Shown in pieces: positions 51,542 through 59,102 of a DNA stretch of 64,000 nucleotides; the first letter of the stretch is position 1; each line of letters starts with the position of its first letter. The notes beneath the pieces are model-generated. The model searched no databases. It was not told where the DNA came from and worked only from the letters and a program-made list of their open reading frames with translations. The stretch lies in the IMG/VR virus record IMGVR_UViG_3300036886_000243, positions 27,509 to 91,508 of that record; one strand, given 5' to 3'. The translations under genes were made by a program, and so were the position numbers. The stretch is from a virus.

Positions 51542-51813
51542 TGAACCTTGAAGTTGGAAAACTTTACTATAATGACTTTAAAGAGTGTATAGTAAAAGTT
51601 ACTAGTAAAATTGAGAAGCCCGATGAAACTGGCGTAGATAAGCCATCCTCATATACGGCTACAGTTTTAATTGGCAATTTGACATTTGGCGAGCGCAATT
51701 TATTTTTTGCTGCTGATTCTAAGTTTGATAATCATTTAGAAGAAATCATAACACTGCTTGAGACTCGAAAAAAGAAAGTAATAAGATCTATTTGGAATAC
51801 TATTCATGGCTGA
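51541..51813 (+). CDS. Hypothetical protein, 90 aa (C-terminal helix family)
   Basis: MNLEVGKLYYNDFKECIVKV begins a small beta barrel; the C terminus is KKKVIRSIWNTIHG. TAATG start. It overlaps the terminase start by 8 bases. Confidence 0.55.
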   Translation: MNLEVGKLYYNDFKECIVKVTSKIEKPDETGVDKPSSYTATVLIGNLTFGERNLFFAADSKFDNHLEEIITLLETRKKKVIRSIWNTIHG

Positions 51814-53698
51814 AGATAATAAGAAGCACGTCCTTCGACGACTACAAGAAAAAATAATCGAATTCAATTTGCCCATAACTGTCGATAAAATACCTTTATC
51901 TGGCGAGTATGTCAAAGTAAAATATAACGATGATACTGTAGATACCGTAGACTGGAAAGCAGAGTTTTATCTTTGTAAAAATTTCTTTGAATACTTTGCT
52001 GATCAATATGGTTATATTTTAGACCCTAAAAACAAAAGAGTCTTTGCTTTTAAATCACACAAGTTCCAAAGGGAATTGATAATTCCCACGATATTAAACA
52101 ATCTACACGTAATATTTAGAAAGTGCCGACAACAAGGCTTGAGTGTCATTTGTGGTATCTACGCTATATGGAAAGTAAATTTCAATATGGCCCAGGACGT
52201 AATGATAATTTCACGAACTGGTAAAGATGCACGAGACTTCAAAGCAAAGGCTATGGTAACCTACGATAGATTACCAGAGTTTTTGAAAACGAAAGCTACT
52301 CGCGATGGACAGAACATGTCCACACTAAAACTACTCAACCAATCTAAAATGGAAGTTAGAACAGCTGCCCAGGATTCAGGACGTGGTGTTACTGCTTCTT
52401 TATTGATACTTGATGAGTGTGCTTTCATGCAATACGCTGATGACATCTGGGGTTCAGCTTATCCTTCATTGTCTAACACTGGCGGTCAATGCTTTATAAT
52501 TTCCACTGCAAACGGAGTAGGAAACTTTTATCATCAAAAGTGGTTACAAGCTGAAAATGGCGAAAGTGATTTTGCAGCAGTATATGTACCATGGTGGAAG
52601 TACCCTGGTCGAGATAACGATTGGTCTGAATATATTAACGATCATCAACAAGACTACATAGAAAATGAATTAGGTACTATTTCTGTAGAACAATTAAAGA
52701 AAGACTTAGCCGAAGAAAAAGAAAATGTACCAGATGCTTATTGGAAAAGATTAGCAGATCTTTATGTCCAGAAAAAAGAAGAAGAAGCGTTAAACTATAA
52801 CGGCACAGGTAAAAAACCTTGGCTCAAGATTCAAAGAGATGAACTAGGACCCAGAAAATTTAATCAGGAAATTTTATCTAGATTCTTAGGATCAGGTAAT
52901 ACAGTAATAAGCATAGAAGCTCTTGAAAGAATAAACGAGCAGATAAGGGAACCAGTATTCACAGACAGCTTAGACGGACGTGAAACCATTAAAGGTTTGA
53001 ATGTTTTTCAGTCACCAGTAAATGATATAACTTATACAATGACCGTCGACGTTGCATCCGGATCTGGTAGCGACTATAGCACTTTTCAAATTTTTAGAGA
53101 TGATAGCTTAGAACAGGTAGTCGAATACAAACAGCAAATAGATAATAAATCATTTTCTGCAATAATAAAGAAAGTTGGTAAGCGTTACAATTTAGCCTAT
53201 GTAATAGTAGAAACTAACCAAGGTATGTCTGTCTTTAATGAATTATATCTAGATGTAAATGATCCTTATCAGAATATGCTATATGAGTTTAAGAATAGAT
53301 CTTATCGAGGTTTACATACTGGTCCAGCCAATAAGAAACTAATGCTTGATGAATTCATGATGAACATAGAAAACAACCATATTAAGATTTATGGTAAACG
53401 CACTTTAGAAGAAATGCAGGTTTACATTTGGCACAATAATAAGCCACAAGCTAGTACTGGTTATAACGATGACTTAGTATTGCCCATAATGTTCTTAGCC
53501 TATTTATTGAAGTACGGGGAACAAAGAATGACTACGCTTGGTTTTGCAACCGCTACACAAACAGTAGGCGTTCCTCAAGAGACCATGGCGGACGAACGCG
53601 TAGAAGAGATGAAATATTTCAAAGAAGAAGAGGCAAAGAGGGCAGTTAAAGATCTCTATGGCCTTGATTGGGAGACGTATAATTGGGTAAGCAAATAA
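51806..53698 (+). CDS. Terminase large subunit (gp17-like), 630 aa
   Basis: ATPase: FRKCRQQGLSVICGIYAIW at residues 104-122 sits at the Walker A position, LLILDECAF (199-207) is Walker B with the catalytic Glu, and FIISTANGVGNFY is the coupling motif. Nuclease: MTVDVASGSGSDYSTF (Asp415), VIVETNQG and GYNDDLVLP supply the acidic residues. It powers DNA packaging into the prohead through the portal and cuts the concatemer. The Walker A Lys is replaced by Leu112, as in some terminases with RQxGxS. No intein here. Confidence 0.92.
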   Translation: MAEDNKKHVLRRLQEKIIEFNLPITVDKIPLSGEYVKVKYNDDTVDTVDWKAEFYLCKNFFEYFADQYGYILDPKNKRVFAFKSHKFQRELIIPTILNNLHVIFRKCRQQGLSVICGIYAIWKVNFNMAQDVMIISRTGKDARDFKAKAMVTYDRLPEFLKTKATRDGQNMSTLKLLNQSKMEVRTAAQDSGRGVTASLLILDECAFMQYADDIWGSAYPSLSNTGGQCFIISTANGVGNFYHQKWLQAENGESDFAAVYVPWWKYPGRDNDWSEYINDHQQDYIENELGTISVEQLKKDLAEEKENVPDAYWKRLADLYVQKKEEEALNYNGTGKKPWLKIQRDELGPRKFNQEILSRFLGSGNTVISIEALERINEQIREPVFTDSLDGRETIKGLNVFQSPVNDITYTMTVDVASGSGSDYSTFQIFRDDSLEQVVEYKQQIDNKSFSAIIKKVGKRYNLAYVIVETNQGMSVFNELYLDVNDPYQNMLYEFKNRSYRGLHTGPANKKLMLDEFMMNIENNHIKIYGKRTLEEMQVYIWHNNKPQASTGYNDDLVLPIMFLAYLLKYGEQRMTTLGFATATQTVGVPQETMADERVEEMKYFKEEEAKRAVKDLYGLDWETYNWVSK

Positions 53699-53895: not shown

Positions 53896-54137
53896 AAATC
53901 AATGTCAAAAACATTATAAGCGATTGGGAATACGAGATTCATAAGTGGAAGGGATTTGATATATCGCACAGTCCAAGACCGAAATGGGAATATAGTCTTA
54001 GTCGAGATGGTTATGAAGTTTTTGAATTTAGTCGGGGTGGGTATTTAACATTAGAAAGTATAGTCGAAAATCTTGAAAAAGCCTTAGATGAAGAGAAGAA
54101 CAAAATAGCAATGATCCGAGCTTGCTTCGAGAACTAA
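53892..54137 (+). CDS. Hypothetical protein, 81 aa
   Basis: ATGA start. Trp-rich alpha/beta protein (WEYSLSRDGYEVFEFSRGGY) with a C-terminal helix. Function unknown. Confidence 0.5.
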   Translation: MKINVKNIISDWEYEIHKWKGFDISHSPRPKWEYSLSRDGYEVFEFSRGGYLTLESIVENLEKALDEEKNKIAMIRACFEN

Positions 54138-54148
54138 AGGTTTTAAAA

Positions 54149-54730
54149 ATGTCTAATTATTATTATGAACTACATAGAGAAGAAATATTGAAAAGCCGTA
54201 AAGTCTACTACGCAAAAAATAAGACAGCAAAATTAGAATATCAAAATGAATACATAAAACAACCGGACGTGATAATAAAACGTAAAGAATATATGAAGAA
54301 ACGTAGAAAAACGAAGTCCTATAAAGACAACCATTATATAAGCCATAAAAAATATAGACAGACTGATAGTTATAAAGTTCATCTTGAAGCTCGAAATAAA
54401 AAATACAGCCAAGACCCAAAATTTAGATTGAATCATAGTATGAGTGTTGCAATAGGTGATGCTCTGACCAAGAATAAAAATGGTAGACATTGGGAAGATT
54501 TAGTGGGCTACAAGATGCCTGAACTAAAACAGCATTTAGAAAATTTATGGTCATCAGGGATGTCTTGGAATAATTATGGTAAAAACGGTTGGGTCATAGA
54601 TCACATTATACCCAGAAAGTTATGGGAGTATAAATCATCTAACGACATTGAATTCAAGCAATGTTGGTGCTTAGCCAATTTACAGCCATTATGGGAAATA
54701 GACAACATAAAGAAAGGTGATGCCTGTTAA
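54149..54730 (+). CDS. HNH endonuclease, phage homing type, 193 aa
   Basis: A basic N terminus with many Tyr/Lys (YAKNKTAKLEYQNEYIKQPD) is followed by SWNNYGKNGWVIDHIIPRKL and FKQCWCLANLQPLWEIDNIK. This is the HNH-like WxIDHIIP..FxxCWxLxNLQPLW pattern of phage homing enzymes. ATG 54149 is preferred over TTG 54122. It sits between terminase and portal together with two more nucleases. Confidence 0.75.
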   Translation: MSNYYYELHREEILKSRKVYYAKNKTAKLEYQNEYIKQPDVIIKRKEYMKKRRKTKSYKDNHYISHKKYRQTDSYKVHLEARNKKYSQDPKFRLNHSMSVAIGDALTKNKNGRHWEDLVGYKMPELKQHLENLWSSGMSWNNYGKNGWVIDHIIPRKLWEYKSSNDIEFKQCWCLANLQPLWEIDNIKKGDAC

Positions 54731-55819: not shown

Positions 55820-56155
55820 ATGAGTCGGACTACAGAGCTAATAGAATACAGAAAACAAAAGCACTGGAAACAATTAAAGAAACTATACTCTAATGTGGGT
55901 TGTGAGCTTTGTGGAGCTAAAAGAAAAAAAGGCCGCGCCTTCGTAATACATCATCAGCATTATAATTCTTTAAACAACGAACAGCGTGAGGATTTGCAAA
56001 TTCTTTGCCGCCGTTGCCACAACATGTGTCATGATATTATTAAGATGAAAGATGGATCTGATTTTGTGGCAGGTCTAAAAGACTATGTCAGAAAATATTT
56101 TATATACTGCGATACCAAGAAAAGTGTTAATATAATTAGCGAGGTGAAAATATAA
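55820..56155 (+). CDS. HNH endonuclease, 111 aa
   Basis: CELCGAKRKKGRAFVIHHQHY (residues about 28-48) and LQILCRRCHNMCHD give the zinc CxxC pairs and the HH...N/H catalytic core. Short stand-alone HNH protein. Its stop abuts the GIY-YIG start. Confidence 0.7.
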   Translation: MSRTTELIEYRKQKHWKQLKKLYSNVGCELCGAKRKKGRAFVIHHQHYNSLNNEQREDLQILCRRCHNMCHDIIKMKDGSDFVAGLKDYVRKYFIYCDTKKSVNIISEVKI

Positions 56156-56725
56156 ATGGTTGGTATAATCTATTTAGCAACTAATCAGGTTAATGGGAAA
56201 GTATACGTGGGGCAAACCATCAAAACGCTCACTTGGAGAAAGGGCAAACACTATAACAGATTATCTGACGATGACAATGCTCATTTTCATAACGCTTTGA
56301 GAAAATACAAAAGAACAGATTGGACTTGGGAAATTTTAGAAGAAGTTATTAGTGATACCAAAAAAGAAGCTAAAGAAATTTTGACTAAATACGAAAAATA
56401 TTATATAAAAGTATTAGATTCTAAAAATCGATTAATTGGCTATAACGGCACAGTGGGTGGCGACGGAGTCGTAGACCCTTCTGAAGACGTTAGATATAGT
56501 ATGGGAAAATCTTGGAGAGGTAAGCGATTACCCAACGATATGAAAAAACTCATGAGCGAATCGCACAAAGGAAAACCATGTCCTGAAAGTGCAAAAATAA
56601 AAATAGGTAACGCTTTACGAGGAAAATCAAATTGGTGGAAAGATCGGCCCAAATCAATTGAGCAAAAAGAAAAAATGAGACAATCAGCTCTTAAGCGTTA
56701 TACAACAGTTAAGGAGATAATATAA
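56156..56725 (+). CDS. GIY-YIG homing endonuclease, 189 aa
   Basis: GIIYLATNQVNGKVYVGQT (residues 3-21) is the GIY-YIG motif, with a conserved Arg in TWRKGKHYNR and the catalytic Glu in KYEKYYIKVL. The C-terminal half (SWRGKRLPNDMKKLMSESHK; GKPCPESAKIKIGNALRGKS) is built of NUMOD3-type DNA-binding helices. It ends 1 base before the portal GTG. It would spread itself, and perhaps the portal intein, by cutting related genomes. Confidence 0.85.
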   Translation: MVGIIYLATNQVNGKVYVGQTIKTLTWRKGKHYNRLSDDDNAHFHNALRKYKRTDWTWEILEEVISDTKKEAKEILTKYEKYYIKVLDSKNRLIGYNGTVGGDGVVDPSEDVRYSMGKSWRGKRLPNDMKKLMSESHKGKPCPESAKIKIGNALRGKSNWWKDRPKSIEQKEKMRQSALKRYTTVKEII

Positions 56726-56726
56726 A

Positions 56727-59102
56727 GTGGATCGAAACAGGGAGATACAAAAGAAAAGCGAAATTATCCAGTCCTATTTCAACAAACTTGGAATCTCCAA
56801 GATTCGAGATTTAGCAACTATTGATCCTAATAAAAATAACGATGCTTTTCAGGCCTTTGGATCTTATCGAACAAATGTCGAATCATTTACTTCAATAGAT
56901 CAAAGTAGAATGATGCGATATAGACAATATGAGCAGATGTGTATAACTCTAGATACTAAAATCGATTTATTAGATGGTAGATCAATTTCGCTTTCAGATT
57001 TAATAAAAGAATATGAGGCTGGTAAAGAAAACTGGACATATTCAATAGACACTAACAATGGTAACAAAGCAGTTTCAGGTAAGATTGAGTGGGCAGGAAT
57101 AACAAGAAAAAACGTTGAGTTGGTTGAAGTTTTTATAGACAATAAATCAATTCGTTGCACTCCTGATCATAAATTCATGTTAGATGATGGTACTTACAAA
57201 GAAGCCAAAGATTTACAACCCAACGAACTTCTAATGTCGAAAGACCAAAATCATAGAGTAATAAAAGTTGAAGAACTTAGCGTTACAGAAGATACTGGCT
57301 GTATTACAGTAGCTGAATATCACAACTTTAGTGTATTAGACTCTATATACATAAAAAATTGTTATGTTCCAGAACTAAACGGTGGTATAGAGCTTTATGC
57401 TGATGATAGCTCTTTATATAACGAACAAGACAAGACTATAAACATAGAATCAGATAATCAAGAAGTAGTAGACGCTTTAGACAATTTATTTTTTAAATCG
57501 CTAGATCTTAATTCAGTGTTATGGCACATCGTATATAACACTTGTAAATATGGTGATTCATTCTACGAAGTAATTCCTGACAACTTTAAGAACCCCAGAC
57601 GAATAAAATATTTAAGATTCATACCTCCTCAATTTGTTGGACGAAAAGAAAGAGACGGAAACTTACTAGAGTTCATAGTAAAAGTTCCAGAAGATGTGAC
57701 GGTGGGATCGACAAGTTTTACATCTACGCAATCTCAAGAAATAAGTCTTAAACCTTGGCAAATAGTTCACTTCAAGCTGGATGACAAAGAGTTTGAACCC
57801 TATGGTAAATCAGTATTGGAGCCTGGACGTTTAGCATTCAAACAAATGAAATTGATAGAAGACGCAATGCTAATTTATAGGATCTCAAGGGCGCCTGAGA
57901 GGAGGGTTTTTAACATACCAGTTGGTAATTTGCCATATAGAGAATCAATGGCAAGAGTAGCTGACTTCCAGCAGAGGTATAGGAAAACTCCTTGGATAGA
58001 CCCTCAAACTGGAGAAATAAGCTATAAAGAGAATCCCTTAAGTATTAACGATGACTTCTTCCTACCTAAGAGACCAGATGGCTCAGGAGTAACTATTGAA
58101 TATCTACCTGGTGGCCAACAATTAGGTGAGATTGACGACGTTCGGTATTTCAAAGAAAAAATCCTACGAACCATGAGAATTCCCATAGCTTATTTGACTG
58201 GGGAGCTAACAGGTGATGTAGCTAAGACTTCTTTGGCTGCAATGGACGTAAGATTTGCTAAAACTATTGAAAGAGTTCAAAAACAAATATTACGTGGTCT
58301 AGAAAAACTGGCCACTATTGAATTAGCTTTTAAGAGATTTAGCTTAGATGACCTACAATCATTTGTGCTTAAACTAACTCCTGCTTCGAAAATTTATGAA
58401 TTACAGAACTTGGAAATGATGACACAAAGAATTAATGTCATACAAGCTGCCATGAATTTGAAGGACGAAGCGGGTAATTTATACCTACCTACCGAGTGGA
58501 TGTACAAGAATATTAGTAAATTCACAGACCAAGAAATATCTGTTATCAAACTAATGCAACAATCTGAAGCTGCTCACAAGGCGGAGATCGCCGCAGCAGC
58601 GGCTCAAGCTACAGCAGGGGCAGAAGGCGGCGGAGCACCTGGCGGTGGTTTAACTACAGAAGTACCAGGTGGTGGATTAGGTGGCGGAGCACCTGGTGGT
58701 GGATTAGAGGCTGGAGCTTTACCAGGAGCTGAAGCAGGCGCTGTACCTCCTGGTGGAGAAATCGCTCCTGCTCCAGGGGCCGCAGGAGTCGGTGGACCGG
58801 CCCCCGAGAATACCCCCGCTCCTACAGGTGGAGGTGCTGAATTGGCAGTAGCTGGACAAATACTAAATATAGCGAGTGAACAGTTCTTACTTGAAAATGA
58901 GAATGATATTAAGAAACTGATAAAATATGTGAAAGAGCAGCAAGAAAATCAAAAGATAACTAAAGATAAATCTGTAACTAAAGTCAGAGGAAAAATGTAC
59001 GAAAACCATTTCAACCAACTCTTTATTGCTGGCGAACTCAAAGGATTGATTCGACGCAAAAATGGAGAGAACAATAACAAAAAGGAAATGTTAGAGGACT
59101 AG
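56727..59102 (+). CDS. Portal protein (gp20-like) containing a mini-intein, 791 aa precursor
   Basis: GTG start with AAGGAGATAAT upstream. Extein: MMRYRQYEQM (to residue 71) and then CYVPELNGGIELYADDSSLYNE (from 212), matching the T4-like portal segment YxxMxxxPxLxxAlxIYADEat. DSFYEVIPDNFKNPR, GKSVLEPGRLAFKQMKLIED and LTGDVAKTSLAAMDVRFAKT follow. Residues 72-211 are an intein. After splicing about 651 aa, longer than T4 gp20 because of a Gly/Ala/Pro-rich low-complexity stretch (about 629-708) and a C-terminal helix. It forms the DNA channel at the head vertex and docks the terminase. Confidence 0.9.
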   Translation: MDRNREIQKKSEIIQSYFNKLGISKIRDLATIDPNKNNDAFQAFGSYRTNVESFTSIDQSRMMRYRQYEQMCITLDTKIDLLDGRSISLSDLIKEYEAGKENWTYSIDTNNGNKAVSGKIEWAGITRKNVELVEVFIDNKSIRCTPDHKFMLDDGTYKEAKDLQPNELLMSKDQNHRVIKVEELSVTEDTGCITVAEYHNFSVLDSIYIKNCYVPELNGGIELYADDSSLYNEQDKTINIESDNQEVVDALDNLFFKSLDLNSVLWHIVYNTCKYGDSFYEVIPDNFKNPRRIKYLRFIPPQFVGRKERDGNLLEFIVKVPEDVTVGSTSFTSTQSQEISLKPWQIVHFKLDDKEFEPYGKSVLEPGRLAFKQMKLIEDAMLIYRISRAPERRVFNIPVGNLPYRESMARVADFQQRYRKTPWIDPQTGEISYKENPLSINDDFFLPKRPDGSGVTIEYLPGGQQLGEIDDVRYFKEKILRTMRIPIAYLTGELTGDVAKTSLAAMDVRFAKTIERVQKQILRGLEKLATIELAFKRFSLDDLQSFVLKLTPASKIYELQNLEMMTQRINVIQAAMNLKDEAGNLYLPTEWMYKNISKFTDQEISVIKLMQQSEAAHKAEIAAAAAQATAGAEGGGAPGGGLTTEVPGGGLGGGAPGGGLEAGALPGAEAGAVPPGGEIAPAPGAAGVGGPAPENTPAPTGGGAELAVAGQILNIASEQFLLENENDIKKLIKYVKEQQENQKITKDKSVTKVRGKMYENHFNQLFIAGELKGLIRRKNGENNNKKEMLED
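56940..57359 (+). mobile_element. Mini-intein within the portal gene, 140 aa
   Basis: Starts at Cys72 (block A: CITLDTKIDLLDG), block B IRCTPDHKFM with Thr145-x-x-His148, block F ITVAEYHNFSVL and block G SIYIKN/C with terminal Asn211 and Cys212 as the +1 residue. The penultimate residue is Lys, not the usual His. There is no homing endonuclease domain between blocks B and F (about 40 residues). Removal restores a continuous portal sequence. Exact in-frame length 420 bases. Confidence 0.9.

Follow-up and report, generated by a model that had tools for sequence, protein, structure and literature searches.

The portal gene of a phage of the T4 type encodes an insert of 140 residues that, judged by its sequence and its modelled structure, is a class 1 mini-intein. 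Very likely, it is a splicing-competent element that descends, as a likely ectopic copy, from the HNH-bearing inteins of a second portal site (site b, its own position being site a), and that is now vertically inherited. The window, meaning the whole stretch of DNA that was analysed, comprises 64,000 nt and forms the end of a viral contig of 91.5 kb. The features needed here are as follows.

51806-53698, upstream of the portal gene: terminase large subunit
55820-56155, + strand: free-standing HNH endonuclease, 111 aa (Pfam HNH, 22 bits, cut-off 21.4; PHROG HNH families)
56156-56725, + strand: free-standing GIY-YIG homing endonuclease, 189 aa, with a NUMOD3-like tail (Pfam GIY-YIG, 29.5 bits, cut-off 22.6; PHROG 314, 8e-24)
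56727-59102, + strand: portal protein gene, T4 gp20-like, GTG start, precursor of 791 aa
56727-56939, + strand: N-extein, residues 1-71, ending in YEQM (by alignment with site-empty portals)
56940-57359, + strand: predicted mini-intein, 140 aa, precursor residues 72-211 (by profiles, fold and the empty site in relatives)
57360-59099, + strand: C-extein, starting with Cys212 (putative +1 nucleophile), CYVPELNGG

The portal ORF matches Pfam Portal_T4 (E 3.5e-79, from residue 215 onward), PHROG 213 portal (E 2e-76) and the T4 gp20 structures 3ja7/6uzc. Downstream of it, comparison with T4 suggests that genes for prohead protease, scaffold and major capsid protein follow in their expected order, assignments that were made by gene order and reading only. 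A long Gly/Ala/Pro-rich low-complexity stretch of variable length among relatives lies near the portal C terminus (58600-58830), and within the window no match to a known family of structured RNA was found.

Boundaries and class of the mini-intein

The translation of 56727-59102 reads ...RYRQYEQM / CITLDTKI...IRCTPDHKF...EYHNFSVLDSIYIKN / CYVPELNGG..., with the slashes at the extein-intein junctions; in intein numbering its key residues are C1, T74xxH77, C121 (F:4), H128 (F:13), K139 and N140. Comparison was made with 19 distinct IMG/VR contigs whose encoded portals share about 60% identity or more. Three of these carry the insert, at sizes of 140 (L003, identical to the window), 144 (L004) and 142 residues (L005), and the other 16 portals are uninterrupted at this exact point, where they read YEQM-CYVPEL or a close variant (the Cys after the junction is replaced by Thr or Ala in L011 and L017). 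Because portal homologues without the insert are continuous at the exact point, residues 72-211 are, on this sequence comparison and far beyond chance, an insert and not a portal domain. A preliminary description of this DNA had placed a mini-intein at 56940-57359, which proves right to the base, with profiles, fold and empty site in agreement. Its residues (Cys72, TxxH, HN, Asn211/Cys212 and a penultimate Lys) are all correct on the translation, its expectation that removal rejoins YEQM to the portal agrees with the exact extein junctions, and its statement that the element has no endonuclease of its own is likewise borne out, no such domain lying between blocks B and F (as seen from the length of 140 aa, from profile searches and from the HNH part that is missing relative to the site-b intein of L013).

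Two checks suggested there were run. Aligned homologous portals proved continuous at residues 72-211, the insert of 140-144 aa being confined to the three carriers. Profile searches placed Pfam PF14890 Intein_splicing (41.7 bits, cut-off 35.8, residues 82-170 of the portal ORF) and NCBIfam TIGR01445 intein_Nterm (29.5 bits, cut-off 24.5) above their thresholds and TIGR01443 intein_Cterm below (12.9 bits, cut-off 15.6), the low value for the last plausibly fitting a penultimate residue other than His. Solved mini-inteins were also matched by sequence (DnaE, 8e-8; NrdJ-1, 8e-6), and the AlphaFold2 model, with a mean pLDDT of 96.9, has the HINT fold, Foldseek pairing it with Npu DnaE, Ssp DnaB and NrdJ-1 at TM 0.81-0.88. 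The nucleophiles of class 1, Cys72 and Cys212, are common to the three carriers, in which C1, T74, H77, C121, H128, K139, N140 and Cys+1, and likewise block B as T74-P-D-H77, are invariant; the C-terminal Asn (N140) is kept in all 23 aligned portal inteins. The penultimate His, common and not obligatory in class 1, is absent, its place being taken by Lys139. Given that class 1 inteins of mycobacteriophages can lack this His (PMC5050341), the lysine is not disqualifying for class 1. Cys at F:4 raised the alternative of a class 3 intein, which was rejected: C1 is present, and the triplet's Trp and Thr are replaced by F79 at B:12 and I138 at G:5, so that only Cys F:4 is shared.

Predicted splicing and the penultimate lysine

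The mini-intein is probably functional, as far as its sequence and model can tell. In the 791-aa precursor, the HINT domain (140 aa) would fold, Cys72 would attack the N-junction with the assistance of the block B Thr and His, the N-extein would pass to Cys212, and Asn211 would cyclise, aided by the block F His instead of a penultimate His, so that a portal of 651 aa would be released. With neither a penultimate His nor the usual Asp in block F, the rate of splicing and its side reactions may depart from the typical. The preliminary description had likewise allowed for modified chemistry on account of the penultimate Lys. That residue is real and the active site is atypical, but neither is peculiar to this element, being shared by larger relatives at another site. 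A penultimate Lys or Arg is also found in the large site-b inteins, in site-c inteins and in one intein of LR756508; all 13 inteins of this kind keep His at F:13 and lack Asp at F:4, a residue present in nine of ten inteins with a penultimate His. Co-variation of F:4 with the penultimate position was considered and set aside, as it comes down to two or three changes on the tree and is not significant once relatedness is counted. Among inteins at large, F:4 is most commonly Asp, then Cys, and F:13 is most commonly His (PMC4031507), while mycobacteriophage inteins may have Gly, Lys or Ser at the penultimate position, and a block F His is able to substitute for the penultimate one (PMC5050341). 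Since Lys or Arg occurs in the large relatives, all with a block F His, the lysine is, by this comparison, an inherited variant that accompanies Cys F:4 and His F:13, and not decay. The modified active site is thus a family trait inside the known range of inteins, and a compact intein with Cys F:4 and a penultimate Lys is useful for studies of splicing.

Two other readings of the element bear on whether and when it splices. It was earlier suggested that splicing could gate head formation. On a regulatory reading of this kind, slow or conditional splicing would delay portal maturation. One part of this stands: site a maps onto the wing domain of T4 gp20, at residues 82/83 (site b to 328/329 in the clip domain; domain limits in T4 gp20 are 70-254 for the wing and 279-358 for the clip, PMC4493910), an insert in the wing would probably disturb assembly, and an unspliced portal would probably misassemble. 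Non-His penultimate residues, moreover, modulate the rate of splicing in a mycobacteriophage intein (PMC5050341), and two conserved cysteines, Cys73 and Cys121, might respond to redox conditions. Nothing, however, indicates that splicing is conditional: no conditional feature was found in the mini-intein, most relatives do without an intein at site a, and the atypical residues are common to large HNH inteins at another site and are therefore inherited, not tuned to site a. A regulatory role is accordingly improbable. Slightly less probable still is a dead remnant, which would have stopped splicing and persist in the portal as an inert domain. Loss of the endonuclease and the atypical penultimate and block F residues would fit such a remnant, but the pairwise dN/dS values of the intein among the three carriers (0.17, 0.07 and 0.12, NG86) indicate purifying selection, all nucleophiles are invariant across these diverged sequences, the large inteins have the same atypical residues, and the insertion lies in a conserved part of an essential protein.

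The portal gene as an intein target

More broadly, the T4-type portal is a recurrent target of inteins. Reading of portal ORFs revealed at least ten intein positions across T4-type portals, among them YEQM/C (a), KANPL/S (b), WIDPT/S (c), GLELY/S (d), IYADE/S, QYDRL/S, RYADF/S, VEYLK/S, PYGK/S and WKQL/T, and site h, which is a cluster of neighbouring positions near EEAIG/S. At least one portal intein is present in 11 of the 19 close contigs; none was found in 23 more distant contigs (about 40% identity), where the portal ORFs are of ordinary length, though contig ends cut a few of them. LR756508.1 (L001:5749-9909) has a single portal ORF of 1386 aa with three inteins, of which two are mini-inteins (150 and 141 aa) and one has a large insert; the split intein that the order of matches had suggested in this genome was rejected, the portal being one ORF with three separate inteins. 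The view that portals are uncommon hosts consequently does not hold in this phage group, and portal inteins of mycobacteriophages have been published (PMC5050341). Among the papers searched, none dealt with inteins in T4-type portals, which may nevertheless have been described before. Portal genes with inteins at multiple sites will mislead automatic annotation.

Inteins also occur in neighbouring terminase genes. In L030 (283-2449) and in L031, an intein divides the gene for the terminase large subunit into two ORFs. Its N-part is very short (about 31 aa, CLWGESTVMVFDEFTGEERWITLSDLYDILE), and its C-part, about 110 aa long, ends in VSHN/C. From its sequence this looks like an atypically split intein, and we take it to resemble the AceL-TerL type. 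In L004 (335-3331), L005 and L009, the terminase large subunit contains a LAGLIDADG intein (FRK/C). The window's terminase is without it, though the portal intein is common to the window, L004 and L005.

Probable origin from inteins at a second portal site

Searches with the intein and with the portal both returned, as the closest relatives, large inteins at the second portal site KANPL/SINDD (site b), which are carried by L013, L014, L015, L016, L022, L023 and L047, measure 372-409 aa and have an HNH motif; that of L013 matches HNH PHROG families. Identity across the splicing columns is 75% with the site-b intein of L013, in place of whose HNH part the mini-intein keeps only a few residues, and 62-70% with the other site-b inteins. 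On the intein tree, the three site-a inteins form one clade (100/99) beside the site-b intein of L013 (92/87) and within the site-b group, a nesting that is moderately supported, in that a tree holding the site-b inteins together is only marginally rejected (p-AU 0.05). On the tree of portal exteins, the carriers again form one clade (100/99), with L013 in the same supported group (98/92), and the site-b label is scattered, with five changes. The window's own site b is empty.

The simplest history, and the most likely on these trees and alignments, is that in this lineage the intein moved from site b to site a, losing its HNH part, and was then inherited vertically. A site-b HNH intein (KANPL/S) would have been copied ectopically to a position before the conserved Cys of YEQM/CYVPEL, the copy would have lost its HNH part, and it would then have descended within a single clade. 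This reading is based on three known carriers, and from them we infer both the direction of the jump and the order in which the endonuclease was lost. Two search patterns found no such mini-intein in bacterial and archaeal genomes. Here an intein that has no endonuclease can be set directly against its large, endonuclease-bearing relatives elsewhere in the gene and against empty sites, and this comparison bears on how inteins change site and how mini-inteins originate.

The upstream endonucleases and possible mobility

One base separates the stop codon of the GIY-YIG gene from the portal GTG, and the HNH gene abuts the GIY-YIG gene. Each of the three carriers has this pair immediately before the portal. 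Upstream sequence is available for 15 site-empty relatives, and among these no close homologue of either enzyme occurs, 14 of the 15 having a PDDEXK resolvase-like gene in that place. A gene of this kind (PDDEXK_15/RusA-like, about 180 aa) usually precedes the portal, as in L008, L009, L010, L011, L012, L013, L016, L017, L022 and L035; it is missing from the upstream position in all carriers of the mini-intein and in L014, which have endonuclease genes there instead. Between terminase and portal, the window also holds an HNH-like ORF at 54122-54730 (recognised by eye from WVIDHIIPRKLW). It shares 41% identity with an ORF that precedes the portal in L022/L046 and is possibly another free-standing homing gene.

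It is possible, if doubtful, that the intein is mobilised in trans by the adjacent HNH enzyme, the GIY-YIG enzyme or both, a process that would add to the history given above. The enzyme would cut the portal genes of competing phages at the uninterrupted site, an intein within the target would shield the phage's own genome, and repair would copy endonuclease genes and intein together. The presence of the pair in every carrier and in no site-empty relative is consistent with such collaborative homing, as is the finding of close homologues of both enzymes only in intein carriers; both enzymes are intact and conserved (dN/dS 0.06-0.08 for the GIY-YIG gene), and the arrangement is known for phage introns (PMC10448857). 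The carriers are a single clade, however, so that the association counts as one evolutionary event. Moreover, the same spot attracts such genes anyway: among site-empty phages, it also holds a different GIY-YIG gene in L006 and L013, a different HNH gene in L014 and a short GIY-YIG-like ORF in L047. The portal mini-inteins of L027 and L030, for their part, have the terminase directly upstream, with no nuclease gene between. Nor is there a sign of separate transfer: at synonymous positions, neither the intein nor either nuclease gene is more diverged than the terminase background. A recent transfer of an HNH-GIY-intein cassette was considered and rejected, the dS that looked high against the exteins (window and L005) being ordinary against the terminase; the central C-extein is unusually conserved between these two. 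An alternative drawn from the intron literature, turnover of endonucleases next to an element that has been purged of its own (PMC10448857), fits as well as homing in trans. The fuller scenario, in which the mini-intein jumped between two sites of one hot-spot gene, shed its endonuclease and passed its mobility to the HNH/GIY-YIG pair, is somewhat more doubtful again.

Comparison with known systems

Fused Npu DnaE, Ssp DnaB and NrdJ-1 share with the mini-intein the HINT fold and a size of about 140 aa at the TM scores given above, but are only about 24% identical to it, and the aligned DnaE inteins have Asp where it has Cys F:4. Much closer are the site-b HNH inteins, with the same host gene and the same catalytic set (C1, TxxH, Cys F:4, His F:13, penultimate Lys or Arg, and Asn); they differ in an endonuclease part of about 230-270 residues, in a position 227 extein residues further into the portal, and in Ser at +1 where the mini-intein has Cys. 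The inteins known from portals of mycobacteriophage cluster C1 (PMC5050341) likewise reside in a phage portal, but in another phage group, and are likened here by description, not by sequence or insertion site. Finally, collaborative homing of introns (PMC10448857; PMC6083498) offers the same juxtaposition of a splicing element without its own endonuclease and a free-standing homing endonuclease gene, with the difference that the element there is an intron and here a protein intein, for which cleavage of the site is putative.
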